From Tetradesmus obliquus (lineage: Eukaryota > Chlorophyta > Chlorophyceae > Sphaeropleales > Scenedesmaceae): DNA of 64,000 bases. Below, one piece after another: positions 4,659-59,180 of this stretch. The first letter of the stretch is position 1; each line of letters opens with the position of its first letter. The stretch lies in the NCBI GenBank assembly GCA_030272155.1, contig CP126200.1, forward strand, positions 4,340,001 through 4,404,000. Direction: 5' to 3'. A program made the position numbers and the translations under genes. The notes under the pieces are model-generated. The model was not told the DNA's origin, did no database searches, and saw nothing but the letters and a program-made list of their open reading frames with translations.

Positions 4659-7374
4659 GCACACGGGGTGGCTACAGCTCCTACTCCGACATGTACAAAT
4701 CGCTGCATAATACGTTTGGCACGACTGTAGCTGCTGCTGAGGGAGCTTCCCCTGCCAGCAGCCGTAGCAGCCAACCGCAGGAGCTACAGCTGCACACAGC
4801 TGCTGCTGCAAGCAGCAGCAGCAGCAGTGGTGGCAGCGGCTTGGGTGTGGACAGCAGCAACGGCAACGGCCATCAAGCGAGCAGCAGCCCGCCTGCTGCA
4901 GCGCCAACCAAAGCTGCCGAAGCTGCTGCAGCACCATCAGAAGCTGCTGCTGCTGCTGCGCCGTCTGCTGCAGCTGCTGCTGGTGTGGAAGATGCCCTCA
5001 AAAAGGCACAGCAGGCGCTGGCTGCTGCAGAGAGCAGCCTGGACTCCATCCACAAGCTGCGCAGCGCACAGCCACCCAACAAGTGGGCCGAGCTGCTGCA
5101 GGTGCTGCGCAGCGCGGCTGTTGTGGCAGCAGCTGGCTCCGCACTGGTTGCCTCGCATGCTTTTGGGCTGGGCTGGCAGTGGGCGGGTGCTACGCTTGGC
5201 GCCTTGGGGCTTGCAGGTGGGTGGGGTGAGGGTTCAGTGTGTGGCGCCAGGCGCGATGTTGCCATGTGGCATGCCAGCTTGCTGCGCACCGCAGGCATGC
5301 GCAGCCATGCACTCAATAAGAGGGCAACGCTACATACACTCTAATGACCTGCCGCTGGCGCTATTCTCGCGCTAACTTTGCAGCAGTGATAGCGCCACAG
5401 TAGCGCTTGCGCACCCCACCATGGTGTCACACTCAGCTGGTCACTCCTGCAGTGGATGTGATAGTGCTACATCCCACTGCAACTCTCTGCACCGCTGTGC
5501 ATGTGTTTTGCGGTGGCCATCTCTGTTGTGTTTCTTGCAAACTATATATGCAATGTGTTCGCGCCGCTTAGTTGGTCTGACGCCGCTTTTCCTGCCACTG
5601 GCCGAACAACACACCTACCACCACTGCCTGTATACAGCGCGCGCGTACCAGCGCAACGCAGTCACACCAGCCGGTGCCTTTGCAGTGGCAGCAGCATGCC
5701 TCGCAACGCTGGGCTGCAGCTTGCGCTTCGGCGTTGTGATGCTGGCGTATGCTTACACCAGCCACAAGCTGCGGCAGTACAAAGAGGCAAGGCAAGCAGT
5801 GGACTTTGGGGTTGTCTTGAAGCCGCAGCAGCTGCTGCCGCGGGATTGGCCTGAGGTGGGTGGTGCGGCACAACAGCGGGGTGTAGACCCCGCCTGTCTA
5901 GGATTCTGTGGGCCGCGCCAGCTGCATTGCCATCCTGCTTGCATGCATCCACATGCACTATCTCTGTCCAGCAGTGATTGCCAGTCGTTGCCGGCAGCAG
6001 TGGCTGCTTGTAGGTGTCGATGTCTGTCGATGTCTGCCGGAGCTTGCTGGCGCCGCCACCAGCATCAGTGCCTGGTAACGACAGTTCCGTGGTGTCTGCT
6101 ACCCCGCCGGCGCCTGTGTCACAGATGACGCATTCACGCTTCAGCTCTGTCTGCCATGACAGTTCCAATTGTATGTTGAGCTGACGGCTACCTCTGCAAG
6201 TCACCCTCTACACACCTACACCACCTACCAACCACTTTGCTTGCACGCTCATCTGCAAATGCGCCCATTTTTGTCTTTCTTTCAACACCTGCTGCAGGTG
6301 CTGTCCATCGCAGCAGTTCCCACAGTGCTTGCTGTCGCATACGGCGCCATGGCAGGCTGCTTGGACCTACCCTTGGGCACGCTTCCAGCCGTAGAAACCT
6401 GGCGTGCAGACCTGCTCACGCTGTTCCAAGGCGCTGTTCTAGGCTGGTATGCCTGCTGCTGTGGTGATGCCTGGTCCCGGGAACTCGGGGAGCTGTCCGG
6501 TGACATGCCTCGGCTGCTCACCACGCTGCAGCCGGTGCGCAAAGGCACGCATGGTGCGGTTACACTGCTGGGGCTATCTGGCGCTGCTGCTGGTGGGCTG
6601 CTGGTGGGCCTGCTGTTCCATTGTGCCGCGGTGCTGTCGCCTACGCTGTGGGTGTTTGAAGTCCAGGTGAGGCTGCTGCTTGTGTTGCTAGTAGTGAGGT
6701 TGCATTTGCATGCAAGCAGTAGAAGTGGCAGCAGCAGCTGCAGCAACCGGTGTTGTGTTGTCAGGCGGTGGGTGTTGGTGCTGCTTGGCTGCTGTATACA
6801 TAGAGGTTACATAAGTTGTCATGGCTGTGCTATCTGGGTGGGGGCTGTCAGCTGCACCATGCCTGGCCAGTGCTGGCCGGGGCGTGGACGTGAATGCAAT
6901 GGAGTAGATGCCATTGTCTTCCTGCTTCTGCATGGTTTCCCTGCTTGTTGTTGCTTGTGTGCCTGCGCATCGCCTCAAAACCATTAAGCTGCCTACTTAC
7001 CATTATGCCCTCTTGTCCTGCTGCATTGCTTGCACATACTGGCCACGGCGCTGCCATCACCGACGGCCACACGTTTGAATTCAAAACTTGAATCCAAATC
7101 TCAGCGCATGGCGGCCATGAGCCAGTGGCGCATCATCCCCCTGGGTCTCATCGCAGGCGTCTTTGGGTCTCTGGTTGACTCGCTGCTGGGGGCTCTGCTG
7201 CAGTTCACTGGCTTTGACAGCAGCACCTCATCTTTAACTAACACCCCCGGCCCCAAAGTCAGCCGGATTTCAGGCTTTGCATACCCCTGGCTGAACGATC
7301 ACCTGGTGAATGTGCTGGCGGCATCACTCACAGCGGTGCTCACTGCGCTGGCTGCCCTGCGCATGTTTGGGTAG
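4250..7374 (+). CDS. TMEM19/DUF92 family membrane protein, transit-like N-terminus
   Basis: Four exons: 4250-5216, 5638-5855, 6298-6666 and 7105-7374; phases close and give 607 residues. The last ~290 residues are a DUF92 domain of TMEM19 type: RAYQRNAVTPAGAF after a hydrophobic start, then GDAWSRELGELS, PRLLTTLQPVRKGTHGAVTL, and GSLVDSLLGALLQFTGF near the end, with several transmembrane segments. The family includes the plastid phytyl-phosphate kinase VTE6 and animal/plant TMEM19, whose role is poorly known; motif spelling is closer to TMEM19. The first ~90 residues are rich in Arg, Ser, Ala and Gln and nearly free of acidic residues, like an algal plastid transit peptide; a Ser/Ala-rich linker of ~170 residues and a hydrophobic pair follow. 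ATG 4250 is the first in-frame start; a later in-frame ATG (residue MCSSS) is an alternative. Family assignment is firm, location and substrate are inference. Confidence 0.82.
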
Positions 7375-7657
7375 CCAGGTTGTGATGTGGCCGCAGCAGG
7401 TGCCTCAGCACGGGCATGTTTGGACAGCTGGCTCGGCTAGTGGCGCAGCACCTGCTGAGCAGCAGCAGCAGCACCCTGCAGGTGGCGCAGCATGCACAGC
7501 TTGGCTGCTGCCCTCAGCAGGTGCCTCAGCACGGGCATGTTTGGGCAGCTGGCTTTGTTGGTGGCCGGAGCAGGTGCATGAGCATGTGCACAGTTGCGCC
7601 GTGCACAGCAGTACAGCAGTGCTCACTGCGCTGGCTGCCCTGCGCATGTTTGGGTAG
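7331..7657 (+). repeat. Copy of the TMEM19-like gene's terminal 44 bp in its 3' flank
   Basis: Bases 7331-7374, the end of the last exon including the TAG stop, recur at 7614-7657 with a single mismatch, 283 bp downstream. Between them a second pair, at 7396-7433 and 7518-7555, is also nearly identical (offset about 122 bp). The 3' flank was therefore built by nested tandem duplication that included the coding end. Confidence 0.9.
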
Positions 7658-10068
7658 CGCATTGTTGTTGTTGCTGCGGCTGCGCCATTGCAGTGCAACG
7701 GCGATGTCGCGTTCCGTTGACCCGGCTACGTGCGTCACTTGGTCATTGCAGCAGTGCGCACAACGTGCATCGCAGCCAGCTGTGTTGGTGGTCTGCCACG
7801 TTGCAGTTTATGTGTGCGTGTGTCGTGGTGGTGTGTGCTGACACTGTTGCCATGGTTGTGCTGCTGTATCCAGGTGTGCAGTGCTGTGCTGCAACCGTGT
7901 TGGCACCTGAAGCAGTGGGCAGCTGCAGGCTGCTGATCTGGCCTTTGAATAGCTTCCACTTGTTCAATTGCTTTGTGTGCGCAGGTGGCAATGCGCCCTC
8001 TGCATACTGGTATATCTGGCGCTTCAGCACTGCAGACATTAGAAGCTTGCAGCTGGGTTGTACCGGTGTTCTGGTTGCACTCGGGTGTGTGTGTCTAGAA
8101 AAGCCCGGAACTGTGGTTGCTCGTCGTTGTGGTTGAGAGAAGGGTGTGGTTGTGCAGCGTGCCTGCTTGCATGCATGTCGTCTCAGCAGCAAACAAAGCA
8201 GCATTTCATGTCTGTTCTATCAGGTGGATGGGATGCGCAAGAGCAGCATAGCTTGGTTGGTAGCTGTCCCAGGAACATTGTAGGACCTGCACACACCTTT
8301 TCATGTTTGTGCAGTGGAGCTGTTGCTCAGTGGCTTGCCCGCACAGGCCTCCTGGCTGCCAGCACACCTGCTGCTGCTGCTGCTGCTGCAGTTGCCAGCA
8401 ACCAGTCTGCAGAGAGTTATGCATGCGGGTGTGCACAACAGCATGCCTGTCAAACCTATGGCATGAAGACTGGAGGTCGAAACGTGCATTAATGCAGCTG
8501 AGTACATGTTCAGGTGCACCAGGTGATGTGTGTGGAGCACAGCTGCTGTGAGCATGTAGTGTTGAAATCAGAAGGACCAGGGCTCACATGTTGCACTGCG
8601 TGAAGGCCACAGAGCAGCAGCAGCGGTGTGCACCCTTGCGTGTACCTGCTGCTGCATCCTCCCTGGCTCGTCCGTGCTGTGCCTGCTTAGCCACAGCATG
8701 CGGGGCAGTGCTTGCACTGCATGCATGCGCAGTTGCAGACGCACATGCATGTGGCGAGTTGGTTCTGTACAACAGCCAAGTGCTGGACATTGCTGATTGC
8801 TGATTGCTGGAATGGAACACCTAGCAGCATGTGCTGTGTTGCACTGCATGGCTTGCATTTGCGCCCGCGCATTGCGCGTTGCTGGCAGGCATTGTGCATC
8901 TATGAGTGCATATGGTGTGCCTGCAAGGGAATGCTGTTTGATCTGCGTGTGTGCATGCAGGTCCTGCTGCGTCCTGCAGCGCCTGTGGTGTTGACTGAGC
9001 AGAGCAGCGCATGCATCAAGTAAGGAGCGGAGTTGTGGAGCATGTTGACAACCCTGCATGCTGTATGCGACGGTGTTTGGTGCTGTTCTGCGCTGTTCTG
9101 CGCTGTTTGAACAACAGCAGCCCAGTAGGTGTGTGTCGACCCGTGTTGTGTAGAACATGTAGTGCTGCCTCGAGTGAGCAACACTCCTGCGAGGCATGTT
9201 TGCGCAGGCGCAGCTCATGGCTGGATCCAGTTCACCTGTTGTCACGTTGTCATACTGATTTGTCGGTTGCTCTGCACGGCAGCAGGATAAGTAAAATGAC
9301 GAATTCTAGACAAAGCCATAAGTACTGCTGCAAGTCACTTGCTGAAGTGCAGCCCTACCGCTGACTCAGCGAGGTACTCGGAGTGCCTCTGGTATCAACC
9401 TGTGGCCATGGCGTAGCAGCCAGCATGCGCTTGTTGAAAAGTCACAGCGGCTGGTCTTTGCCTGTGGCATGCAGCAGAAGGTGCCTGATGCATGCCGTTG
9501 TCAGTAAAGACTGTACTCTTGCAGGAGCAGTGGCAGGGCGCCGCAGGAGGCTTGCTGAGATTACACCCTGCTCCTGCTGGTTTGAAGTAGCAGTCTTGTG
9601 CATGCACTGACTGATGGTTCTTGCTTGGAAATATGATGTTACTTCCGCGGGCTCAAGCTGTACATCAGCTGCAACATGCAACATCAGTAACACACCACTT
9701 GGGCGGGGGTCTTCTGCTCCAGCATTGCTTGAAGGTGCGCAGCTATGCATTTACCAAGTTTGTTTTCCTTCTGGATCCTGGATCCCAGTTATCGTGCTTT
9801 TACACCACACAGTTGTGCCATTCTCCCTTCACAGCAATTTGAAAGTCGTGTTACAGTGTCATGCCACCTGGGGTTGATGTCTGAGTAGCCTGCCATACTC
9901 TTTTAACAGTGGCGCTCCGCTGGTTCGTAACGAAAAGATTTCCGCGCGGATTGTGGACCACCTAAGCGGGGCCGACTGTGCAATCACAATGACCAGCACA
10001 CCAGCTGCGTGAATTTGCTCTGACAGGGCGGATATCGCCACTTTCGCAATAACATCAAACCAGTGCCT
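7658..10068. other. Long gap without a supported gene
   Basis: Both strands have only scattered open frames with no exon pairs whose phases close, no domain and no clear start. It probably holds the 3' UTR of the TMEM19-like gene and, nearest 10069, the promoter of the TFIIIC gene, where CAG density falls. Confidence 0.4.
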
Positions 10069-18271: not shown

Positions 18272-21200
18272 ATGACTACTCCAGTGCAGCTCGTGTCTTC
18301 TATCCAGCTTCCTGCTCCCGTTGCGGAGAGTGCAACAACACATGCAGCGCAAATGAAGCAAGATAAGGTGTTGCGCAGCCAGCGCATCAAGGACAACAGC
18401 AACGCTGTGGCCATCGCCCCATACCAGGCCCTCGGTGTATGCGGGCCTATCATCACGCACCACCGTGCTGCCGCGCTGGATGTGCTGGAACCATGCCCCA
18501 ACATGTCTGAGGAAGTAAGCAACGTAGCTCGTCTGGCGGCCCGGTGCACTTGCTGACCCTCTGCGCTGTCAGTGCTGACCGCAGCAAACTCACCTACGCT
18601 TGCAGGACCGCCTCTCGGCCATCCACGAGGTGCTGCAGAAGTACCAGAAGAAGCTGGCAGAGCGCACCAACCACCACATGGGGTAGGTCGCCTTTAATTG
18701 AGCAGCAGCAGCAGCAGCAACAGTTGAGCTACGCCAGCTACCAGCAGCTGAACATGACTGTACCAGGGCACGCCTGAGCTAGGCTGCATGCATGGTCTGC
18801 AGGTACCCTTACAACCTGGACTTTGACTTTGGTGCTCTGGAGGGCCTGAACAAGTTCAGCATCAACAACTTGGGCGACCCATTCATTGAGAGCAACTATG
18901 GCGTGCACTCGCGCGAGTTCGAGGTGCGCTGGGCGTTGGCAGCAGCAACAGCAGCAGCAATGGAAGCAGCTGCAGCTGTTCGTACCTCATGTGGGGGCGT
19001 GGTTAGCAGCAAGCTCCAGAGGGTGTGGTGGGTGTGGTGATGTGAGCCGCTCAGCTTTCCTTTCCGCTCGGGCAACACAGCAGCAGCACATCAGCGAAGG
19101 AGCCAGCATGTGTGCTGCATCATCAGTGTGTTTGCTCTGCATGCGCATTTTCCAGAGTCATCTGCACAGTTGTCTTTCCATATGTAAACAGAGTTCCTGC
19201 CAACCTGCAAGGCACCACAGCGCAAAGAGCGTGGTGCTCATCCCAAACAGCAATTATTATGTCTCAAAACACCAACCGCTGACACACACGGCGTCGCACA
19301 CCGTGATCTTACGCAGGTGGGCGTGCTCAACTGGTTTGCGCGGCTGTGGGAGATTGAGCAGGAGGAGTACTGGGGCTACATCACCAACTGCGGCACAGAG
19401 GGCAACCTGCACGGCATCCTGGTCGGCCGCGAAAACCACCCTGATGGCATCCTGTACGCCAGCCGGGAGACTCACTACAGCGTGTTCAAGGCGGCACGCA
19501 TGTACCGCATGGACGCAGAGAAGGTGCGTGCAGCAGCTGCTGTGCTATGTGATGTGCACGAGCGCTGCTCTGTGCAGCTTGGGGCGTGGCGTAGGCTGAT
19601 GTACATGTACTGCAGGGACGCAGCGAAGGTGCGTGCAGCTGCTTCGCTTTGTCAAGCGAGTGGTGTCGCATGGACTGGAGTGCATGCACTGCATGCCAGC
19701 AGAGCACAGGTGGCAAGAGTATATGTGTTACTCTGCTGCTGCTGCTGAGAGCCAGGGGTATCTGCTCAGTGCTGGGGTGTGTGGATTAGTCAGCAACTGG
19801 CGGGTGGGCTGTGTCATGCGCTGACACAAGCAGCAGCAGCAGCAAGAGCACCTGGAGCACCTGGAGCAGTGTGCAGTGTGCTTCCTCAGCAGTTGCCTTA
19901 CAGCATGCCTTGTCGTCCATTTATATATCTATGTGTCCTACCTTCCAGGCGGATACGCTGCGGCATCACCCACTGGCATCAGCCACCCAACAGCGTTTAC
20001 TACACTACATGTGCTCGGCACTCGTTTGTCTGACAGCACGGCACTCGTTTGTCTGACATCATGTCGCTTGTCGTGCCAAATCACCTTCGCCGTAGGTGAA
20101 CACGCTGGAGAGCGGCGACATTACCCAGCGGCAGCAGCAACAGCATCTACTACACTACGCGTGCTCGGCATCTGTTTGGCTGACAGCATTCTGCTTGTCA
20201 TGTGCCTAATTCCCCGCTGCCTTAGGTGGACACGCTGGAGAGTGGCGAGATTGATTATGAGGACCTCAAGGCCCGCCTGGCCGCCAACAGCGCGCGTCCC
20301 GCCATCATTAACGTGAACATCGGCACCACAGTGAAGGGCGCTGTTGATGACCTGGACCGCGTGCTGGACATCCTCACAGAGACAGGCTACACCGAGGACA
20401 GGTGGGCAAACCTGGATTACTAAGGGGGTGCTGGCATGCATTTGTATGTTGCGCATCATGACTCGATGGATGAACAGGCGACACCGAGGGCGGTTGTGCT
20501 TGCGTGCACATGCGTGTATGGGACACACCTTGCATGCCAGCTTGCCAGCAGCTGGTGGTGTTTGGTGCAGCAGAGTTTGGCATGCAAGGCTGCTGGGCTT
20601 GCGCAGGACGCACAAGCGCGCTCGCCACCAGCACTCCATCTTCATCTGTTGTTGCCGTGGCATGTGTTGCAACTGACGCCGCACCGTGCTGCTGCAGGTT
20701 CTACATCCACTGCGACGGCGCGCTGTTTGGCATGATGATGCCCTTCATCAAAGAAGCCCCCATGGTCTCATTCAAGAAGCCTATCGGCAGCGTGAGCGTC
20801 TCCGGCCACAAGTTTGTGGGCGCGCCGGTGCCGTGTGGTGTCACCATCACGCGCATGCGCTACGTGATGGCGCTCAGCAGCGACGTGGAGTACCTCAACA
20901 GCAGGGATGCGACGATCATGGGCAGCCGCAACGGCCACGCGCCGATCTACCTGTGGTACACGCTTACGCTGAAAGGATACGAGGGCATCAGGCAGGACGT
21001 GGAGCGCTGCATGCGCAACGCACATATCCTCAAGGTGGGTCTGCGCTGGTGGTGCTTGCTTGATGTTTGCTGTAACAGGGAGTTTGCGGAGTTCTTAGCA
21101 TGCATAGCAGATGGAAGCGTCCGCCCTGTGTTGCGGGGGTCATGCTGTATCATGGTGGCGCGGGAGCCGTGTCGTATGACGCTTCATGCGGTAGTTGTGA

Positions 21201-44579: not shown

Positions 44580-46330
44580 TATTATTATTGTTCTCAATTC
44601 TTTACATGCAAGTTGAATTCGAGGAGCACGTGCCGTGCCGGCTGATGGAACAATAGCGGGAAGAGAGCGACAGCAAGACGTATGCCACTGGCAAAGCCCA
44701 TTGACAGCCAACAATAGCCCTGGTAAGGTGAGGGGCGGTTTATGGTGGGGCAGTGTAGGTTGCCGCGTCGAGGTTCAAGCAAACCTTGGCAACACTTGTT
44801 GAACTCACATGCTCTCAAGGCTTTATCGAAGATGGAGTTCAGACCCTGCAACTAGAATTCGTTATGTCACGCTGCAATAGCCCTACGCAGGCGTGCATCA
44901 TGGTCAGGGGCGGGAAAGCCAGCACCATGCCCTGTATGACAGGTGTGAACACCTGTTCACCTCTCACAGTGCCACTGGGCCCAGTGGGCCATGCAGGCAT
45001 GTTGCAGGCTGTGCATGGTGTTGCGTGGGGCATGGTGCAACAGCAGCTAGGGCATGCGAATCTTGTCTTTATGCTTTGGCACTGACAGAATGGCGCAGCA
45101 CATGCCATGCAGTGCCGCTGTAAGTGTACTGCAGAAACAGCATGAGTCAGCACATGAGGACGTTCGTATGCGCTACATGCGGCTACTGTGCTGCTGCTGC
45201 TGCTCTTGCTGTGACCCAGCACCTTGTGCCCTGCGGAAGTATTGGGCCATGGCTGATGTATGGCGTTGCAACTGTATTACCTGTCCAAGCAACAAATTAA
45301 AACAGTACAGACACCTGATCTTACAAGCACACGTGCATATACCCAAACGCTCCACAATGACGGCAAACTGTGAACCCTGCACAATCTGGCATGCATGGCT
45401 GAGCAAGTGCAACCGGGCAAGACAGGCAAGCATGACAGCACACATAACATCAATCCAAAATCATCCATGCTCAGCAGGACAGCCAATGCTTCTGCTGGGC
45501 GCCACACAGCAACTGCAACAGCACTATCTTCAGCATCACAAATTTATGTGCCGGTTCCAACTTATTACAACTGATGGTATGCGCGCATGCATAGGTGAAC
45601 AAGCAGCATTTTGGTGTACTTGGCACTGCGACCAACTGCAAGCTGCTTGCAGGAGGTGCTTGGCAGCAGTCCAACCACATTCGCCATACAAGCACACGCA
45701 GAACACGCCACATGCGAAATCAATACACGCATTGGTGGGTCCTTCACTGCTGTCTCGCACATACCGCGACAGCGCAGCTGTACTGCTTCGAAGCACGCCG
45801 GGGGCCACGTAATGCTTCTACGCTGTGGCGCAGTGCACACTCAACTGCCCTGCATATGCATGTGCCTTGTCATGTGCCATGTTCACTGTGTAATGGCAGG
45901 GAAGGAGGGGAACCACAGGAGAACACAGGGTCACATACTGTCTACTCCGCAGCATCATGGGGTTCCAACCCGCAACATACACAGCAGCCAGCACAGGTCA
46001 AACACCTGGCTGCAGCGCTGCAGCTAGCTGTACTGCTGTCCAGCACCATGCCGCTTGCCGAGCGACTGATGCTCAACAAACTGTGCTACACAACTGTGAT
46101 AGTACCCCTGAACACTGCCTGCAGCGCATGATCATCGCACTACGCACCGCACAACAAGGCGGGGCACGCAGATCCCCCTGGGTAGTTAAAGGCAAACTTC
46201 TGCCATGGCTGCTGCATCTTGATAAGTGCAAGCAGCACGCTCCACCACGCAACACGTGGCAAAAACCAGTCCCTGATCAACTCAACGGCAACTTGCAACT
46301 TGCAGGAAAGGCAACTTCCTGACGCCTTCC

Positions 46331-46574
46331 CTTGACAAGGCATGCATGCAGGCACACGATCCTCACGCCTTCCCTTGACAAGGCATGCATGCAGGCACAC
46401 GATGCCTTGACAAGGCATGCATGCAGGCACACGATGCCTTGACAAGGCATGCATGCAGGCACACGATCCTCACGCCTTCCCTTGACAAGGCATGCATGCA
46501 GGCACACGATGCCTTGACAAGGCATGCATGCAGGCACACGATGCCTTGACAAGGCATGCATGCAGGCACACGAT
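46331..46574 (+). repeat. Seven-copy satellite with higher-order 107-bp period
   Basis: A 30-bp core starting CTTGACAAGGCATGCATGCA occurs seven times (46331, 46374, 46406, 46438, 46481, 46513, 46545). Spacings run 43, 32, 32, 43, 32, 32, so three cores form a 107-bp unit repeated twice, plus one core. The long spacer is CCTCACGCCTTCC, the short one GC. Each core contains the self-complementary GCATGCATGC. Confidence 0.97.
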
Positions 46575-48158
46575 CGGGGAAGATCAGGGACGCAGGATAG
46601 TCTACAACGCAACATACCCTCCAAAGCTCACCCCGGTGACCACAGCTCCACAAGTCCTGCAGGCAACAACTTGGTTTGCATTTCACACTAACTCCACTGT
46701 AACTGCCAACAGACACCATCGCATGCAAGGCCCAGCCTGACCTGGGCTGCTTGATACAACAGATCTAGTGTCTGTTATCACAGCATATTCCACGCAATGA
46801 TGCGACTGTGACACTGCTGCTGCTGCGAGGTTCAACAGCTTTGCAGCTTTGCAAGCTTTTAACACACGCAGAAGCAGCAGTGCTGCAGAGTGCTGGTGCC
46901 CACGGACCCCCCCACACACAATCACATCACCTGACATACTGCTGCAACCCTGGGGCAGCTGTGGCAAATGCAGTGAGCTGCTGTCAGGTGCACAAGCAGC
47001 ACATTCAACTGTGCACAACAGCAGGCAGCGGTGCTTCAACTCTTCCTCGGCCACACGCTATGCTCGCAGCAGCACAGCAAGAAGGCAGGTTGGAGCTCTG
47101 CAAGCAATGCATGGCGACACACTGCCAGCTTGCCCGCCACAGCAGCATTCACTCAGCACATGCGTGCTGGTGAAGGTGCAGGAGCAGGTCTGCTTGCAGC
47201 AGTGCGGAATCCGTGCTGAGCAGATCACACCGCAATGACAACAACATGTAATGCACTGGACAGCAGGAGGAACAGAGCATGATCCAGCACATCTGCAGGA
47301 CTGGCTGCTCATGGATGCTGCGAAAGCACCAACACCAACACACGGGTATCACCAGCTGCTGCAGTCCAGCAGCAGCAATGCAGGTGCTGCACATCACACA
47401 TGTACACACCAGTCCTGGTTGCAGTCTGTGCATGGCATGAGCATGTGACGTCCGCATTATGGCGGCCGGATACAACAGTACATGCACACATATGAGCAGG
47501 AGGCGTAGCCCTCAAGCAGCACCTACAACACAGCATGCATGGTCAAGCCGGGCTGATACGCCTGATGAAGCCCCGGGTCACATCATATTCACTGTCGGCT
47601 GATGAACAACTCACCAACAGGGTGCCTGAGAATGCGAACGGCACGCTCGTGCTGTACTACCATGCAAGTGGTTCCAATAGTGCCGTGGGACGACTAGGCC
47701 CCCGGCTGTGCACAGGCTCACAGCATGCAAACGGTGCTGCCTGCTGCAGATGCTCAATCGGCCCACCTTCCTGCAGCAAGTTTCAAGCAAAGCAACACCC
47801 GAAGCACCACACGTCCCACATGCCCACTGCCTGCCAAGACCACAGTGTGCCTGCTCAACAAACACCTCACCGCTGAACGCCACCCCAAATCACACCAAGC
47901 AGCCACAGTTTGATCCTATGACTCAAACGCTGTGCAGCTCTGCCTGCAAGCTTTCAAGCTGGCGTAAGCAAGAACAGGGTGTGCACATGCAAAGTACATC
48001 AGCCAGCAAGGGCTGCACCCACTGAACACACACTCTCGAGCCGACTCAATCACACGCCAGCATGCAGACCTATTGATGGTAGGAAGGCACCCTCATGTGC
48101 CAGCACTGTGCTCTACGCCCACTGCTGCCTTGCTGGCAGGAGAGTAGATGCTGCCAGT

Positions 48159-48626: not shown

Positions 48627-51600
48627 CTATGTCCTGGACGCATCCAGGGCTCCTGCAACTGCAGCCTGCAGCTCCTGCCCAGACAGCAGCACCCCGCCTC
48701 CCTGCTGCTCATCAGGCAGCAGCACAGGCACCGCAGAGCAGCACAGCAGGCCGAGCGCAAGCTTCCCGCCGCTTGAAAACGGCACCAGCAGCTCCATAAA
48801 GCTGCTGCAGCCAAGCATTGGGCCCAGCTGCCCTCCAAGCGCAGCCAGTACTGCTGCATGTGCAGAGATGCTGCTTAGTGCCGCATCATCCACAGGGAGA
48901 GCCACAGGCGCTGCAGCTGCTGGTGATGCTGCAGATGCAGGTGCTGGGGCCGCAGCTGCAGCGTCGCTGCCTGCTTCTTCTGTTCCTGCAGGGGACGGCG
49001 CCGCTCCTGCTGCTGGCGCTGAATCTTCTGATGCAGCTGCGCCTGAGCCTGCGCTGCCAGCAGACTCTGATGCTGCTGCTGCTGGGGCTGGCTGTCCTGC
49101 AGGCTGCGGCGCAGGCACGTGCAGCACGATTGCCGCAAGCTCTTCTGCGCTAACGCCACCCCAATCGCCAGTGTAGATGCGCACAGCATCACACTGCAGC
49201 TGCAGCCCAGATGCATGCAGCTGCACCACCTGCCCCAGCCAACTCAGCAGTATCGCAACTGCCTCTGCTGCAGAGCATCCGCGGACATCCACAAACGTCA
49301 GAGGCTGCGGCATTCCCTGGTCCTGCATGCCTATGTTGCTTGCAGGACTTCCTGCAAACTGCTGCTCCTGCCCTGGCAACCCCAGCTGTCCTGCAAAGCT
49401 GCTCGCAGTGCCACCCAGAGCAAACAGGCTGCCTGCAGCAGCAGATGATCCTGGCTGGGGGCTGTTCTCGCCGAGCGATGCGGACTCGAGCTGCAGGATT
49501 AGCTGCTGCTGCGGGGACAGCAGCGCCGAGGATGTTGCAGCACCCAGATCTGCCGTTGGAGTGGTGCCGGTGCTGCTGCGTGCAGGGCCTTGCCCGAGCG
49601 TGCCAGGGTGCAGCAGGTAGTGTCCCATTGTGCCTGAAGAAGGGTGCCGCGCAGAACAATCAGGCAGAGTACTACTCAGCACAGGACATGGTGTGTGGTC
49701 CAGGCAGGTTTTGAGAAAGAGCAGCATCCCCTCATCTTTGATCCAGCACTCAGCAGCTAACCTCTTGACAAGCAACAGAGCAGAGCAACACAAGTCATGC
49801 TACAGGGCAGCATAATTAACCGACAGCACAGACCAACATATCTGAAACACGGTTCACCACGCAACACCCACCTGCAGCATGCGCAGAGTCCACCAGATGC
49901 ACTGCAGCAAGCAGCCCCTCAGTTCCGCCGCAGCACACCAGCAGCTCCAGCAGAGCAGCTGTCACGCCAGCAATACCAGCAGCAAACGCTGCACCCCTGT
50001 CGCTCTTCATCACATTGTACAGATCCAGTGCCTGCACCCAGCCGCGTGTTGCAAACTGGCCTTGCAGGAAAACCAGGAACAGCAGCTCGTCGAGGGTCTC
50101 ATTAGGCAGCAGGCCCTGGGCAGCGCTGCTGCCAAACTGCAGGCTTCCTGCAGAGGCGTGTGCTGCCTGCAGCTGGCTGCGGTACTGCTGCAGCAGCTGC
50201 GCAATGCCCTCCTGCTGCCCTGCTGCTGCGGACACCTGCAGGGAGGGCAGCACAGGCAGAAGACAACAGCAAGGCATCAGCAGAGAGGAAGGAACAATGA
50301 CGTCGATTGGTGTGAATCCACAGCTGCTGTGAGCAGCGCGTTGAGCAAGGCTGCAGCGCCGAGCATTGACAGCAGCACTAGCTGTGAGCTCGCACTGTCG
50401 CTTGCCTGGGCTGTGTGCCTGTCTGTACAGAGCAGCCAGCAAGGTCCCACATATTGCGGTTGAAACAACACTGCGCTCAACAATCATCATGCAGAGTGCC
50501 ACCTACCTGTAGGACCTCCCGCGCAGCCTTCCAGCAGCCCTCCTGCACACACGCCAGCAGCAGCCGCTGCACCACCAGCTGGCTGACCACCGTGCCGACA
50601 CCATAGCAAGCACGCAGCAGCTGCCCCGCATGCTGCCACGCATGCTGTGCCTGCAGCGCATCCAGGGCTGCTGCTGCAGTGGCTGGGTCCAGGGAGTGCC
50701 CCTGCTGGGCCATCAGCAGAGACAGCTGCAGCACTACTGCATGCGCTTGGCAGGCAGCAAAGGTTGAGACCATGTTGCGGTACAGGGTGGAGTCTGGGGT
50801 CACTCCTGGCTGGTCCAGCATGAGGCCATACACCTCCAGAGCCCTGTGACAGCAGCATTAGCAGCAACAGCCAGGCAAAGGAAGCGTAAGCGTGCAGCGT
50901 TGAGGCGCAGCTGCATGTGTCATTGGCATAGCCAAGGCAAGAAGAGCATGCATCTCCAGGCATAACATTGTGTGTGTATGTGTCAGCAAGACCGGCTCGT
51001 GACAGGACGGCACAATGCTGTGTTGCTGGGTACTAGATGGTGAGGCAGCCAGCTAGTGTGAGTGTGGTACAAGCGGTTTGCATGTGCTGCTTTGCATGTG
51101 CTTGTGCTGCCGCACCTGGAGCAGATGGCTGGCCTGTCCATGTCCCCCACTGCTGCTGCCACGTTGCTCAGGGTGCAGAACACGGTGTTGAAGGAGGTGG
51201 TGGATGGCCGCACCGCAGCGCTGCAAGAAGCACAGACACAGAAGCAGCATGCAGAAGCACACACAGCACACAGGGACAATAAGATCAGCACGTATCAGCA
51301 GTTGGGGCGGCACTGGCAACATTGCTAGGCATGGATCGATTGGAGTCTAAATGTTAGTACGCATCCAACGTGTGGTACAATGGAGAACAATGGAGTACTC
51401 AATTTGCAGCCCAACACCATGCACCATGCATGTGCTGCTGCACCCTGCTAGCTGCTTTTGTTTCCCACTACTGCTGCCATGTCACCATTCTATCATATTA
51501 ATCTGCGTGATTGCTGCTGCGCAGCGGGCTCACCTGGTGCACATGTGCTGCAGCAGACCCAGACTCTCCTGCCACGCCCCCATCTTCGCATATGCATGCA

Positions 51601-53475
51601 GCAGCGTGTTGTAGGAGATGAGGCTGGGGCTAAGGCTGCAGGAGAGCATCTCGTCAAACAGCACCTTCACCTGCAGTCACAACAAGACGCACGTAAAATG
51701 CCACAAACATGAAGTTGGAAAATGGAAGTGCATATGGAAAGGGCACATAGACAGGGTTTGTGTGTAGAGAAGCAATCAGACAGCATCTCGTCAAACAGCA
51801 CCTTGACCTGCAGTCACACAGCACATGCCACAAGCATGGCACAACGGTGAGGTTGAGTTAAAATGGAGTAGACACCAAAGGGAGCATCTATGAGGGTGCG
51901 GCAAGAGAAGCAATCAAAGATGCAGGTGGTGGCTAGTCAGCCTGCACAAGCTTCTGTTTTTGCCTTGGACTGTCCCCGCCCTGCTGCATGTGCCAAAGCA
52001 GCTGCAGTATGCACTGCACTGCCCGCGCGCACGGGAGCTGAAAACAAACAGGCGTGCCTTCGTCTCCTGCTAGTGTGCTCACCGTCTGCGGCTTGTCGCA
52101 CGCCAGGCACGCGCTCATGAGGATGTTGTAAGTCACGCTGTTGGGCCGCACACCCAGCCGATTGGCCTTCAGCTCCTGGAACAGCTCCACCGCACAGTCC
52201 CAGTTGTCCTGCAAGCAGCGGTGTGCAGTAATGAGCACAAGTGATGCAGCACAGCTTGTCCACCAGCTCTACTGGCAAAGTCTGTGCTCAAGATCTACTG
52301 TAGCTTCAAGCCAGTAGGAGCTGGCAGTTGCAAGGCAACTGTTTTGTTTCGTCCTGCAAGCAGCGGTGTGCAGTAATGAGCACAAGTGATGCAGCAGAGC
52401 ATGTCCACCAGCTCTACTGGAAATCTGGGTGCTTGAGATCTGCTGTAGCTTGGAGCCAGCAGGAGCTGGCAGCGGCAAGGCATCTATTTTGTTTGCAATG
52501 CCTGCAGCACGACTGGATAGCACGTTATCTGCAAGCCCTACGAGATAGCAGCTGCTGCTGGCGGGCTCTGTGTTACAGGTCTCGTGTTCCCTACACAACA
52601 GGGAACATGCTTCCAAGCAGCCAGCGCCAAAGCAATAATACAACAAACAACAACAGTCCACACAACAACAGCTCCAAGCTCACCTCTTTGATGAGCGCTG
52701 TGAGGTATGAGTTGACGCAGGTGATGTGCACAGGCAGGCCTGAGGCCTGCAGCCAGCCCCAGGACTCCTTCACGCGGCCGTATGCCTGCGCCTCGCTGGC
52801 AATGGTGATGAGCGTGCCATAGGTGGCCACTGTTGGCTGGATCCCGCGCTGCTGCATGTGGTGGTACAGCTGCAAAGGCACAAACAGCAGCAGCAGCAGC
52901 ACAAGCAATGGTTTTCAGAGCGATGCTAAGCACAGGAGGAAGCTCAAGTGGCCGCTGTGGGCTGGATGCCACGCTGCTGCATGTGGTGGTACAGCTGCAG
53001 AGGCACAAACAGCAGCAGCAGCCGCAGTAGTTCAAGAGATGGTTAGCCACAGCAGCCCGAAACATAGGCGGAGGCGTAGGTGGCCACGGGTGGGCTGGGT
53101 GCCGCGCTGCTGCATGTGGTGGTGCAGCTGCAAAGGGACGAACAGCGGCAGCAGCAGCAGCAGCAGACAATCAGCCACAGCAGAGCGCATTCCAACCCGC
53201 CTGTTCGCAGCAGGTAATAACACGGAGCCACACGCAACGCCCAGGTGAGTGCTGACAACTACACACCCAGCACGCGCAGCATGCAGGAGCCAGGTGTGGC
53301 TCACCTGAAAGGCCGTGTCTGTCTGCTGTGCGTTGCCGCAGGCCTTCATGACTGTGTTGTAGCTCACAATGTCGGGCGCCAGCTCGCCCCCACACTGCCA
53401 CATCACCTCCAGCAGCTTCAGCGCCTGCTTCCACCTGTGGATGCAGCAGCAGCAGCAGGTTTGTGCAGAAAGGTG

Positions 53476-53506
<31 letters not shown>

Positions 53507-53650
53507 GGTTGTCAACGCGATGGTGCCAAAGAAGCATCGCTGGTGCCACATCACCTGGCAGCTGCAGCGCCTGCTTCCACCTGGTGTTGATGTGTTGCAC
53601 GCATACAACAGTGTGGCAGCGGCTGCAGCAGCATCAGCGGCAGCAGCCCC

Positions 53651-53693
<43 letters not shown>

Positions 53694-56600
53694 CAGTAGC
53701 CGTTGTATACAGCACGTTGAAGCAGATGACATGACAGACAAGTTGATCGACATGGTGCATGTGAGGCTTCAGCGCAATCCAATCTTCCAGGCGCCAGATC
53801 AGCAGCTGAAGCGGTTGAAAAGCAGCGCACCAACATGGGCATGTCCACATACCTGGGTGGCACCGCGCGAGCATACGCAGCCAGCAGCGCATTGCAGCAC
53901 ACCCTGTTTGGGGAGCTCTTCTTGCTGTTCAGGCTGCCGGCGCGGCCCAGCCGCAGCCCTATGCCGCCACTCAGAGAAGCCAAGCCAATACTGCCGGACC
54001 TCTGCAGCTGCAGCGAGCCCTGCCGCAGAGGAGACTGGGAGAGCTGCCCCAGGCCGCTGCCGCTGCGCATTGGGTGGATGGGAGGCCTGTTCGGTGAACC
54101 TGCAGCTGCTGCTGCTGCTGCTGCTGGTGTGTCGGCTGAGGCTTCTGCAGCAAAAGCGGATTGGCTGGCGGGTGCTGCTGCTGCATCCTTGCCGGGTGGC
54201 GGCTGTGTGGCGGCGGTGCTGCTGCTGCTGCTGCTGCTGGCGTCTGTTGTAGGGGCTGGGCCGAGGCCCATATCTGCCAGCTGCGCTGACAGGGAGCGCA
54301 CCAGCACTGAATTTGGGGAGCTGTGGGTGGCTTGCTGCTGCTGCTGCTGCTGAGTAGTGCAGGCGCCATCTGCTGCTGTAGCGTCACTGGGCTTGGCTGC
54401 AGCTCCTGCAGCGTCAGGAGAGGATGCGCCGTGCACAGTGCGCACATCAAGGTGTGAGTGGGGAGCCGCATGCCAATGCTTATGAGAGTGCATGAGAAGC
54501 AGGCGCCTGCCTGGATACATCATGCCATGGCATTGTCGTAACATCAAAGTGCGGTTGTCGCTAGCCACCTCAAAGGCACCGCACCGCTGTTTGTCGGTTC
54601 AAATCACACGCTTACCAGAACAAAGACAGCATGATCCGCTGACAAGCTTACCAGGCAAGAACACGACAGCGTCAGAGGTTGCCAGCAACTCGCTGCTGCC
54701 AGGCAGGATCACAGAGACGCTGCATACACCGCTCATGCTGCTGCTGCCAGTGCTGCTGCGCGGCCAAAGCGACCCAGCAGCAGCAACTGGAGCAGCAGCA
54801 GCAGCAGCGGTGACGCCAGCGTCCTCTGCAGTATCTGCGGCGGCAGCAGCAGCAGCTGCGGCTGCCTTTGCAGCGGCCCTGTTGGCGCCCACAACTCTGC
54901 TCCATGCACCCGAAAGCGTCCTGACAATGCCCCCAGAATCCTTGCTGCTGTCATCAGGCTCACAGCCTGATGCACCAGCCTGCAGGCCTGACAGCTCAGG
55001 CCATGGGCCGGCTACATCAGGCTGTGGTTTTGACAGCTCAGCTTCAGGTTTAGGGCTCAGCACGCTCAGCACGCCAGCTTGCAGGACAGACACATCAGGC
55101 CTGGCCTGCATGGCTACTGCACCAGCCTGCGAGCCTGGTGTGGTGAGAGCACCAGCAAGCTTGGCTGGTGCAGAAGCATGCAGGAAAGCTGGTGTGTCAA
55201 CCTGCAGGCCTGGAGCACTGGCCTGCTGCTGACCTGGCACGCTGCTGCTGCTGCTGCTGCTGCTGCCAGGCTGGCATGGCAGCTGCTTTGCACTGCCAGC
55301 CAGGCCTGGCACAGCTGCCAGGCTGCCAGGTATACAGCTACTAGATGTAATCCGGCTGCCTGCTGCTGGCACTGCCAGTGACTCTATGCATGCATGCAAT
55401 GCAGCTGATGGCAGCTGTGCAACACCGCCAACTGGAACAGCTGCGGCAGCCCTGCTGTACTTGGCAACGGCTGCTGCACTGAACAAATGCGGCCGCTTAC
55501 CGGCGCCTGCTGCACCTGCCGCACCCTCCTCTCCTGCTGCTGCTGCTGCTGCTGCTGCAGGGTCATTGCTCTGCATCAGGCCAGGGGGTGCCAGGCTCTG
55601 CAGCTGCTCTGCAGGGGGCAGCTGCTCCTCTTGGATGCTCAGCGCGCTGAGGGCTTCTGCTGTGAATGTTCCTGCAACCAGTGAGGGGCTTGCCAGGGTG
55701 CTGCCTCCAGGGGGCTCCTGCTGCATGCCCTCCAGCAGAACATGGAACTGGCCATGGGACTGGTACATTTGGATGAACACCTGTGCAGCGATGTGATTGA
55801 AGGAGATCACAGGGGCAAAGAGTGAAGCAGCATCAGCACATGTGCAGTGCCCGAACCAGCACATCTGGATGAACACCTGTGGCGCGATGTGCCGGGGGGT
55901 GACACATGGACAGATGAAGAGGCGCCATGTAAAGCGGACGTGGTTGAATAAGAACAAACTTATAGGTTGTGTTGGCAGCGATTTTGCTTGTAGAGCTTCT
56001 GAACTAGGGCTAGCACATGAGAGGGAGATGTGCAGGTTGCACTTGCAGCGAGAGCACAAATCTAAATTTGCAAAGACGGCACAAGCACTCAGCAGCACAC
56101 AGAAAGCCAGCAGCACACCAGCAGGGCCAGCTGCCAGTGCGCACACCAGCAAAGCGGCCGTTGCCCCAAACAACGCACACGACACGGTCCGCTTCATTCC
56201 AGAACGACCCGGCAACAAGCCAGCAGGCTTATTAATGCATGACTTGCCCACCTGCTCCGCCAGCTGCCACTGCGATCCCTTGTCCAGTGCGGTGATGAGG
56301 CTGCAGCAGGTCACCGCGCGTCGCACTCCACGCCCTCTCCTCATTCTCCGAAGAAATACAACGTTGCCAGCCATGATTCCAGCACGCAGCAGTGCGCGGA
56401 GGAACAACAAGCACACCAACAGGACCAGCCGCCAGTGCTCGCACACGCACAACAGCCATCACCCACAACAACGCACACGATAAGTCTGCCTCAACCCATC
56501 ATAATCAAGCAGCAAGCCCACCTGCTCCGCCAGCTGCCACTGCCCTCCCTCGTCCAGTGCGGCGATGAGAGAACAGCAGGTCACCGCGTCGCACTCCACG

Positions 56601-59180
56601 CCCTCTCCTCATTCTCCAAAGCAACATAACGTTGCCAGCCATGATTCCAGCACACGGCAGTGCGCGGAGGAACGACAAGCACACCAACAGCACCCGCCGC
56701 CGGTGCTCGCACACGCAGAACAGCCATCGCCCACAACACTGCACACGATAAGTCTGCCTCAACCCATCAGTATCAAGCAGCAAGCCCACCTGCTCGGCTA
56801 GCTGCCACTGGCCTCCCTTGTCTAGTGCGGTGATGAGGCTGCAGCAGGTCACCGCGTCACACTCCACGCCCTCGGCCACCATGTGGTTGAACACATCGAT
56901 GGCCATGCCCCACTGGCGGCCCTTGGACAGCGCTGAGATGAGGGCGGAGTAGGTGATGGCGTCACGCTCCATGCCCATGTCCGGCATCGCCCTGCAGGGT
57001 GGTTGCAGTGCAATACAGCCAAAATACAGCCGCAGGCAGCAGCATGGTGAAGATGGTGGTGAATAAGACACAGGCACACGGCTGGCCTGTGCGTTCCTTG
57101 GTTGAACAGATGTGCTGTTTGGAATGAACAGGGACGAAGAGTGCTGCAGCAGCGTGTAAACCTTTACACTGTCAGCCACATTCGATCATCAGCAGCTAGC
57201 AGCAGACTGTCTGCTGCTGCAGCTGGCGCTGCGACGTGTCCCCCACACAACCACAGTCACAGCGACGCTGAGCAACCGAAGCCAACAGCCGTGCTCAAAG
57301 CAACACATGGCAGAGAACAGATTTGCCCGCGCCACCCTCCCCAGATCCAGCCACTCACTTGAAAAGCTGCAGCGCCTTCTCCCACTGCCCGCCCTTGTCA
57401 CAAGCGGAGATGGCCGCATTGGTGATGGTGGTGTCGGGGCGCACCCCCACGGCAGCCAGGCTCTCGTACAGCTCAAGAGACTTGGCCCAATGGCCCTCGC
57501 GACTCATCTGGCTCACCAGCTTGGTCAGGCCTGCAGTTTAGAAGAGGCAGTAAGGATGACAGCAGCACAAGGGTTGGTGTGTGCATCATACAGTGGCCCT
57601 TGCGACTCATCTGGCTCACCAGCTGGCTCAGGCCTGCATGGTTGCACACACAGCAGCGCGGCAAACTGTGGTGAGGCAGCAGCACAGCAGCCAGGTTCCC
57701 ATAGAGCTCAAGAGACTTGGCCCAGTGGCCCTCACGACTCATCTGGCTCACCAGCTTGGTCAGACCTGCATTGGATTTTTACAAGCGAAGGGGCAGTGCA
57801 GTAGTTGAGTGAAGGGCTCAGAACATGCTGCGTACAGTGGCCCTTGCGACTCATCTGGCTCACCAGCTTGGTCAGGCCTGCCACGCAGTGCACAAGGCAA
57901 TCAACCGCACCATGGCCGGACAGCAGCAGCAGCAGTGCAGGGCTCCAGTGCGTGCACGACTGTGTCTTTACCAATGCCATTTATCTGGGCTGCATGCCTG
58001 TTGCATTGACCGCCATTGACCGCAGGACAGACGACATGTATCATGTTCCTTGCGGAGCTTCACATGCACCACAAACATGTGCATGCATGCTGTGCATGCA
58101 ACTTCATCAGCTGTTATGTAGTGAGCACCAGGCAGACGTGACCGGAAGGTGCACGAGGCCAGCATGCACCATACGCATGTGGCGCGCCTGCAACTGCCAC
58201 AGCTGACATTTCGTACCAAAGTTCGTACTAGGCACTATAGTGCATACGCACCAGGCAGGCGTGGCCGGAAGGTGCAGGAGGCCAGCATGCGGCGCACATC
58301 GCCAGTGCCAGCCTGCACATGCGCCAGCGCTGCTGTGAGGCTGCAGCAGCAAGCAAGTGGGCAGGCAGGCAGGCAGCAGGTGAGCAGCAGTCGTGTGATC
58401 TCGACACAAACATGCCTGGGCTGCTTGGAGCGGCTCAGCACTGCCGCCTTGCGGGACACACAAACATGCCTGGGTGTACATGAGCGCAAGTTGCAGTCAC
58501 CCGGGCATCAGTCAAGCGCAGTGGTGCTGCACAACTCTGCCGATTTGTCCAATGCACCAGCTCTTCAGTAGGTGGAGCGGCACAAATTGGCCACTCCCAG
58601 CTTCATGTCGACCGGCCTTACTGCAATTCCGTGCTGTGTCCACAGCATGCATGCAAGCACAAGTGTAATCGGCGCATCCCTAATCAAGCACCCACCTCTT
58701 CATGTCATACACAGCTCCAAACAGCCGCCCCTGATCTGCTCCATATCCCCCAGCATCCATCTGCTGCTGCTGCATCCTCCCCCTAGACCACCTGCCACCT
58801 GATGCAGCACCCCCTTGCATCATCCCACCACCGCCATAACCACCCATGGTCATGCCTACTCCTCTATGGCCGGCAGCAGCAGCATGCTGTGCTGCATGTG
58901 CTGCTGCCATGATATCGCCGTCCAGCGAGAAGCTTCGCGCCATCGCCTGCTGCTGCTGCTGCTGCTGCTGGTGCTGCAGCAGCTGCTGCATGTTGATGGT
59001 GGCAGCACATGGCAGAGGGCTGCCAGCATGGTAAGACCCAGGCATTCCGGTAGGGCTTAGGGTTTCAGCCGGCAGCGTAACAAAACCGCCCCAACCACCC
59101 GAGTCCAAGTGGCCAAACCCCCCACCACCCTGCTGCATGCCAGACATCTGCCGGGCAATAGGTGCACTGCCGCCCCTGTA

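Follow-up and report, generated by a model that had tools for sequence, protein, structure and literature searches.

Tandem copies of exon edges lie within introns of a PPR gene and of many sampled genes in Tetradesmus obliquus

A gene of the PPR family, modelled by an ab initio gene finder on the minus strand of a 64-kb stretch of Tetradesmus obliquus DNA (GenBank GCA_030272155.1, contig CP126200.1, positions 4,340,001 to 4,404,000; hereafter the window), carries across six of its introns 12 copies of exon edges, nine from acceptor and three from donor sides, as recovered by self-comparison and the gene model. Such copies are present in many of the genes that we sampled elsewhere in the genome; they are local in character and show loss of similarity in the intron part of the copied unit. 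Their exon part and splice consensus stay about 90% identical, synonymous sites included, a pattern that neutral simulation fails to match. Most likely, the copies arise as ordinary local tandem duplications that splicing tolerates.

Results

Genome sample and gene models

The genome comprises 104.7 Mb in 17 contigs with a G+C content of 0.567; the consulted part of a published account of the species gives 108 Mb, 57% G+C and a mean intron of 462 bp (PMC5966456). The gene finder was trained on the window and on 23 stretches of 10 kb from the same genome, 19 of which come from contigs 1–4, and learned CAG/GTGNG as donor and CTGCAG/G as acceptor signal (the slash marks the junction). All gene models are ab initio, and the junctions named below are thus predicted ones; several exon joins of the PPR gene are backed by Pfam PPR matches that span them. 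The live copy of an edge was chosen by exon continuity and, in a few genes, by domain matches. Similarity hits were kept at a score of at least 50; the reversed-sequence control gave no hit at that score, which rules out chance similarity as the source of the copies. Rfam at gathering thresholds gave no match across the window, and hence no structured RNA was found there.

Exon-edge copies in the PPR gene

An earlier note on this DNA had proposed about twelve intronic copies of exon edges in this gene, with periods of about 90–270 bp and with plausible splice sites mostly kept. All 12 were recovered at the proposed place; offsets between neighbouring copies measured 96 to 270 bp, and the AG or GT was retained in 12 of 12 (Table 1). 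Some details differed from the earlier list. In our numbering the acceptor copies belong to exons 3, 5, 7, 8, 9 and 10 and the donor copies to exons 2 and 4, i.e. exon numbers are one lower from the seventh exon of the earlier list onward, and the copy at 52353, with 3–4 exon bases only, is essentially an intronic duplication.

The copies of exon 3 are layered: a 235-bp block that holds the live edge together with copy 1 recurs as copies 2 and 3. At exon 5 the gene finder took the edge at 55876, whereas we read 55780 as live; the domain match cannot pick the live edge because both edges begin VFIQM, and the edge copy itself scores 47, below the threshold. If spliced in, 11 of the 12 copies would shift the frame or hit a stop, the 55876 edge being the only one that is both in frame and open. 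Use of the copies as alternative coding sites is therefore unlikely in this gene, and the same 11 lack the frame expected of an alternative exon produced by tandem exon duplication. Modelled copies sit within introns between non-duplicated exons, and PPR, FGGY_N and L17 matches bridge them.

Table 1. Live exons of the PPR gene and the copies of their edges (plus-strand numbering of the window; the gene runs on the minus strand).
Feature	Edge	Positions	Strand	Basis
Exon 2 (live), donor edge	58252	58252..58340	-	gene finder
Donor-side copy of exon 2 end; GT, 93% over 43 bp, dissimilar flank	58129	58125..58167	-	
Exon 3 (live), acceptor edge; PPR-like coding	57530	57359..57530	-	gene finder
Exon 3 acceptor copy 1; 43 exon bp + TGCAG, offset 103	57633	57591..57638	-	
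Exon 3 acceptor copy 2; 83 exon bp, offset 235	57765	57683..57771	-	
Exon 3 acceptor copy 3; 43 exon bp, offset 347; in 235-bp repeat together with copy 1	57877	57835..57881	-	
Exon 4 (live), PPR repeats, donor edge	56790	56790..56991	-	gene finder, Pfam
Exon 4 donor copy 1; 84 exon bp, in 268-bp contiguous unit	56522	56522..56605	-	
Exon 4 donor copy 2; 84 exon bp	56252	56252..56337	-	
Exon 5, acceptor edge read as live (gene finder: 55876)	55780	54652..55780	-	
Exon 5 second acceptor-edge copy; 16 exon + 15 intron bp, offset 96	55876	55861..55891	-	
Exon 7 (live)	53434	53305..53434	-	gene finder
Exon 7 acceptor copy; about 37 exon bp, offset 146–148	53580	53544..53583	-	
Exon 8 (live), PPR	52869	52684..52869	-	gene finder, Pfam
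Exon 8 acceptor copy 1; 47 exon bp, homologous intron flank, offset 125	52994	52948..53030	-	
Exon 8 acceptor copy 2; about 50 exon bp, offset 257–258	53127	53077..53165	-	
Exon 9 (live), PPR	52208	52083..52208	-	gene finder, Pfam
145-bp tandem copy beside exon 9, nearly all intronic (3–4 exon bp)	52353	52351..52494	-	
Exon 10 (live), PPR	51670	51534..51670	-	gene finder, Pfam
Exon 10 acceptor copy; 29 exon + 11 intron bp, offset 137	51807	51779..51818	-	

Exon-edge copies elsewhere in the genome

Across 294 kb we found 51 tandem loci, of which 36 straddle a junction, nine are intronic, four intergenic and two exonic; 33 of the 51 (raw count) have a period of 90–155 bp. The 230-kb sample outside the window contributed 39 loci, divided into 28, six, three and two, respectively. 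This bears out the suggestion that such copies may be a habit of the genome, as does the window's pyridoxal-dependent decarboxylase gene (19499–20252), which has an exon-end copy (offset 105) as well as another intronic duplication. The PPR gene is dense in exon-edge copies, with seven loci in 8 kb compared with 39 in the 230-kb sample (Poisson P 5e-4), but it is not unique. Locus counts per 10 kb are overdispersed, with a mean of 1.7 and a variance of 3.2. Moreover, one of the 23 sampled stretches, L032, contains an FGGY kinase gene and likewise has seven tandem loci (L032:558–7223), a density like that of the PPR gene.

Genes with both copies and Pfam matches include those for the FGGY kinase, ribosomal protein L17, and SMC-like, PQQ-domain and TPR proteins. 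Removing the two predicted copy exons of the L17 gene, with all else equal, added 6–7 bits to the Pfam score (103.4 to 109.6; 91.4 to 98.5). With four predicted copy segments removed from the FGGY gene, the FGGY_N match changed from two stretches with 124.2 bits to a single one with 129.1, and the FGGY_C match was unaffected. Contiguous units with homologous flanks were seen at 56.2–56.9 kb of the window and in L018, L027 and L030.

Searches of the genome with four PPR-gene stretches and four other spacer-bearing stretches found each stretch's own locus only, save two short matches elsewhere to one of the PPR-gene stretches (the search passes over very common words), which speaks against a dispersed repeat or introner. 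Templated insertion in either orientation was likewise rejected, given four inverted local matches compared with 95 direct ones.

Further arrays were noted in passing. A predicted-intron array at 46317–46575 of the window, built of 107-bp and 32-bp units, has copies that agree throughout 139 bp and looks very recent; another plus-strand gene (7330–7658), whose model is doubtful, has exon-edge tandem copies. L025:7844–8399 is a coding tandem array with a period of 114 bp (38 codons), in which 26 of 32 differences fall at third positions.

Excess of junction-straddling loci

The earlier note had regarded the copies as more than chance tandem duplication would predict, and this holds overall: 36 of the 45 junction and intronic loci straddle a junction, compared with a fraction of 0.48–0.50 (P 3e-5) in a simulation of random placement and neutral decay that used the same detection filter as the real scan. 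Of the 30 junction loci outside the gene, seven were judged doubtful on manual inspection; without them the count is 23 of 31 (P 0.005). The excess is unclear among contiguous loci with at least 80% identity, which comprise eight junction loci (two of them doubtful), three intronic and one intergenic. Because these contiguous loci number only eight to three, birth targeted at exon–intron borders, as the note had suggested, is not demonstrated and differential persistence would suffice; the junction excess could come about if exon parts simply last longer.

Conservation of the exon-derived parts

Profiles across the junction show that identity, about 0.9 over exon and consensus positions, falls immediately beyond them. 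In 40 pairs of live edge and copy, the median divergence was 0.079 for the exon part and 0.246 for the spacer. Restricted to the 29 pairs with a spacer divergence of at least 0.20, the exon median was 0.085 and 25 pairs lay below 0.13, whereas the simulated exon median ranged by bin from 0.13 to 0.19 at spacer divergences of 0.20–0.45; detection favours conserved exon parts, and the simulation carries the same filter. Copies compared with each other behave alike: 171 of 1417 exon-derived sites differ (0.121) against 355 of 1523 spacer sites (0.233), and indels per bp are about six times fewer (0.010 against 0.059), these pairs being overlapping and non-independent, with non-homologous spacers excluded. 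Private changes in the same copies, filtered for non-homologous flanks, number 87 in 1933 exon-derived and 110 in 992 intron-derived columns.

Conservation of the exon part does not follow that of its flank. The 40-bp intron flank is homologous in 29 of 55 copies (q ≤ 0.05), no closer than flanks of other genes in 25 (q > 0.1) and intermediate in one, and exon identity is 27.0/30 with an unrelated and 26.2/30 with a homologous flank (Spearman −0.18, P 0.18, i.e. no drop as the flank is lost). Blocks that are short (at most 0.62 of the period) yet at least 88% identical occur at 11 of 36 junction loci and at three of nine intronic loci, compared with 0 of 345 and 1 of 346, respectively, in the simulation. 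Simple neutral decay of contiguous duplications thus fails to yield short, highly identical blocks, and since three of the nine intronic loci belong to it, this class is not confined to exon edges. Random truncation of the copies by deletions is also unlikely, because 55 of 57 kept pairs extend to 2 bp or less from the junction in the model. For this count and for the splice-site and flank analyses 11 of 68 pairs were dropped by hand, for lineage changes eight of 68 (coding repeats or unclear models), and similar sets for the frame, exon–intron and copy–copy comparisons.

Lineage changes and splice sites

Pairwise counts look coding-like (154 synonymous and 110 nonsynonymous codons in 60 pairs). 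Assigned to lineages, private changes number 24 synonymous and six nonsynonymous on the live exons, and 42 and 52, respectively, on the copies. Given this contrast, protein-level selection on the copies is unlikely, and synonymous as well as nonsynonymous sites seem to change slowly in them. The earlier proposal that copies are retained for splicing choice therefore fares poorly as far as protein isoforms are concerned, given the frame shifts and stops in the PPR gene and the near-neutral changes in the copy lineages. Some form of retention or homogenisation nevertheless seems to be needed, as the exon parts are conserved beyond the neutral simulation.

The splice dinucleotide is kept by acceptor copies in 34 of 38 cases and by donor copies in 15 of 17. 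Even among copies with unrelated flanks, CAG persists in 14 of 17 acceptors and the +5 G in seven of eight donors, two of these eight having lost GT. Median scores are alike for copied and live donors (5.5 and 5.6), whereas copied acceptors score lower than live acceptors (5.5 against 7.7). Donor copies match at +3 in 14, at +4 in seven and at +5 in 15 of 17 cases. Offsets of the 55 copies fall evenly over the three frames (21, 17 and 17 modulo 3).

Two kinds of pattern would fit exchange within arrays. In L018 and L028 the copy farther from the exon is identical to it and the nearer copy is not. In L030, 4 of 21 informative site pairs misfit a single tree; of four other arrays, two gave 0 of 1 and 0 of 15 and two held no informative site pair. 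The L030 array (7909–8590) comprises six acceptor-edge copies, spaced 114–121 bp apart, with mosaic variants.

Discussion

How might such copies come about? Small local tandem duplications, mostly of 90–155 bp, would arise often in this genome, and those within exons would presumably be purged by selection. A unit that straddles a junction would be tolerated if the spliceosome stays with the edge joined to the rest of the exon; the other copy would then turn into intron, which lengthens. The intron part of the unit would drift, often past recognition, while the exon-derived part and the splice consensus would be held near 90% identity, probably by homogenisation with the live exon through short-tract gene conversion or unequal exchange, in which the live exon is the constrained partner. 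We infer duplication, its tolerance by the spliceosome and homogenisation from the patterns described above, and regard the whole course, from tandem duplication to homogenisation by the live exon, as about evenly balanced between right and wrong. Among causes of the conservation, homogenisation is our leading inference, as it suits the slowed sites, the identical non-adjacent copies and the one mosaic array. More tentatively, the exon edges and their copies may form small families held together, by homogenisation or by spliceosomal selection, while their flanks become unrelated, i.e. maintained spare splice edges; we would rate this as possible but rather less probable.

Several observations weigh against homogenisation. 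The free +4 position of donor copies is often mismatched between conserved +3 and +5 positions, although an unbroken conversion tract would be expected to cover it; the +5 G in unrelated donor flanks also fits poorly. Conversion should erase private changes of the live exon, whose synonymous rate is, by a rough estimate (24 synonymous changes; 103 of 1123 intron sites), about that of its intron. Only three of five blocks with at least four copies had informative site pairs, and one of these showed a misfit. Tracts of 40–90 bp are short for gene conversion. Of the copy-lineage changes, 45% are synonymous compared with 24–36% expected without constraint, an excess softened if older copies carry changes of the exon lineage. 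Finally, the rates of indels and constraint in the simulation were of our own choosing.

Alternatively, splicing itself may use or sense the copies, as decoys, regulatory sites or rare isoforms, so that purifying selection keeps the exon part and the consensus. The retained dinucleotides, the CAG and +5 G beside unrelated flanks, the live-like donor scores and the lower divergence of exon-derived parts between copies all agree with this, and selection on splice recognition would suit a conserved +5 G beside a variable +4. We consider it unlikely nonetheless: 11 of the 12 PPR-gene copies would shift the frame or run into a stop, offsets show no preference modulo 3, copied acceptors are weaker than live ones, GT is gone from two of the eight unrelated-flank donors, 55% of copy-lineage changes are nonsynonymous, and the conservation extends to synonymous sites, which protein-level selection leaves unexplained and selection on splice recognition does not fit. 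We are similarly doubtful of a second birth mechanism that copies only the exon edge with 3–6 splice-site bases (e.g. template switching primed at GCAG) and yields young, neutral copies. It would account for the 25 copies with high exon identity beside unrelated flanks and for the short blocks with unaligned spacers that the simulation never produced at junctions, and the codon differences (46 synonymous and 48 nonsynonymous among 443) suit a young neutral copy. However, flank scores grade, by eye, continuously from homologous to null, and several such cases show weak similarity in the expected flank. Moreover, inverted copies are rare, though template switching can give both orientations, intronic loci have short high-identity blocks too, and the +5 G in seven of eight unrelated donor flanks is left unexplained.

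Least probable of all, and in our view highly doubtful, is that random tandem duplication, neutral decay and a longer visibility of copies with exon sequence explain everything, the excess conservation being an artefact of alignment, detection or gene models. Where duplications are contiguous and at least 80% identical, a clear junction excess is indeed lacking, the simulation shows such an excess at high divergence, and the contrast between exon and intron was at first overstated by counting non-homologous flanks. Yet the same detection applied to simulated loci gave no short high-identity block at any of 345 junctions, and the observed exon median beside diverged spacers (0.085) lies below the simulated range.

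Internal gene duplication is reportedly frequent across eukaryotes, a result ascribed to Gao and Lynch 2009 and known here via citing papers; intragenic duplications are common to that work and ours. The potato RdRp case, in the portions of the sources consulted (PMC4974935; review PMC3443670), also involves local tandem duplication with splice sites inside a gene. Here, however, the units straddle an existing junction rather than an exonic AGGT, and existing introns grow, with no new intron or altered product inferred. Repair of staggered breaks gives small duplications that are likewise short, local and tandem and have been described from both plants and humans (PMC8355091, which cites Schiml 2016 and Vaughn and Bennetzen 2014); the introduction of that paper speaks of insertions < 100 bp, while the periods here are mostly 90–155 bp. 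Arrays of dual-specific splice sites such as UBC, as described in part of PMC10809524, are likewise tandem units with splice sites, but in those arrays a single site acts both as donor and as acceptor within a coding unit, whereas each copy here repeats a donor or an acceptor edge alone, within an intron. Introner elements (PMC9860276, in part) similarly are intronic sequence that multiplies in a genome; in contrast, the sequences used as queries here belong to their own locus alone, bar two short matches. The titles and abstract openings that were surveyed contained no account of junction copies in Scenedesmaceae.

Gene finders may mistake such copies for exons, as happened here. The many naturally duplicated splice sites provide cases for asking how the spliceosome picks one of them. 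Should the excess conservation prove real, exon pieces that lie inside introns would be subject to concerted evolution or to selection. The copies also suggest a route by which introns may lengthen without harm to the gene.

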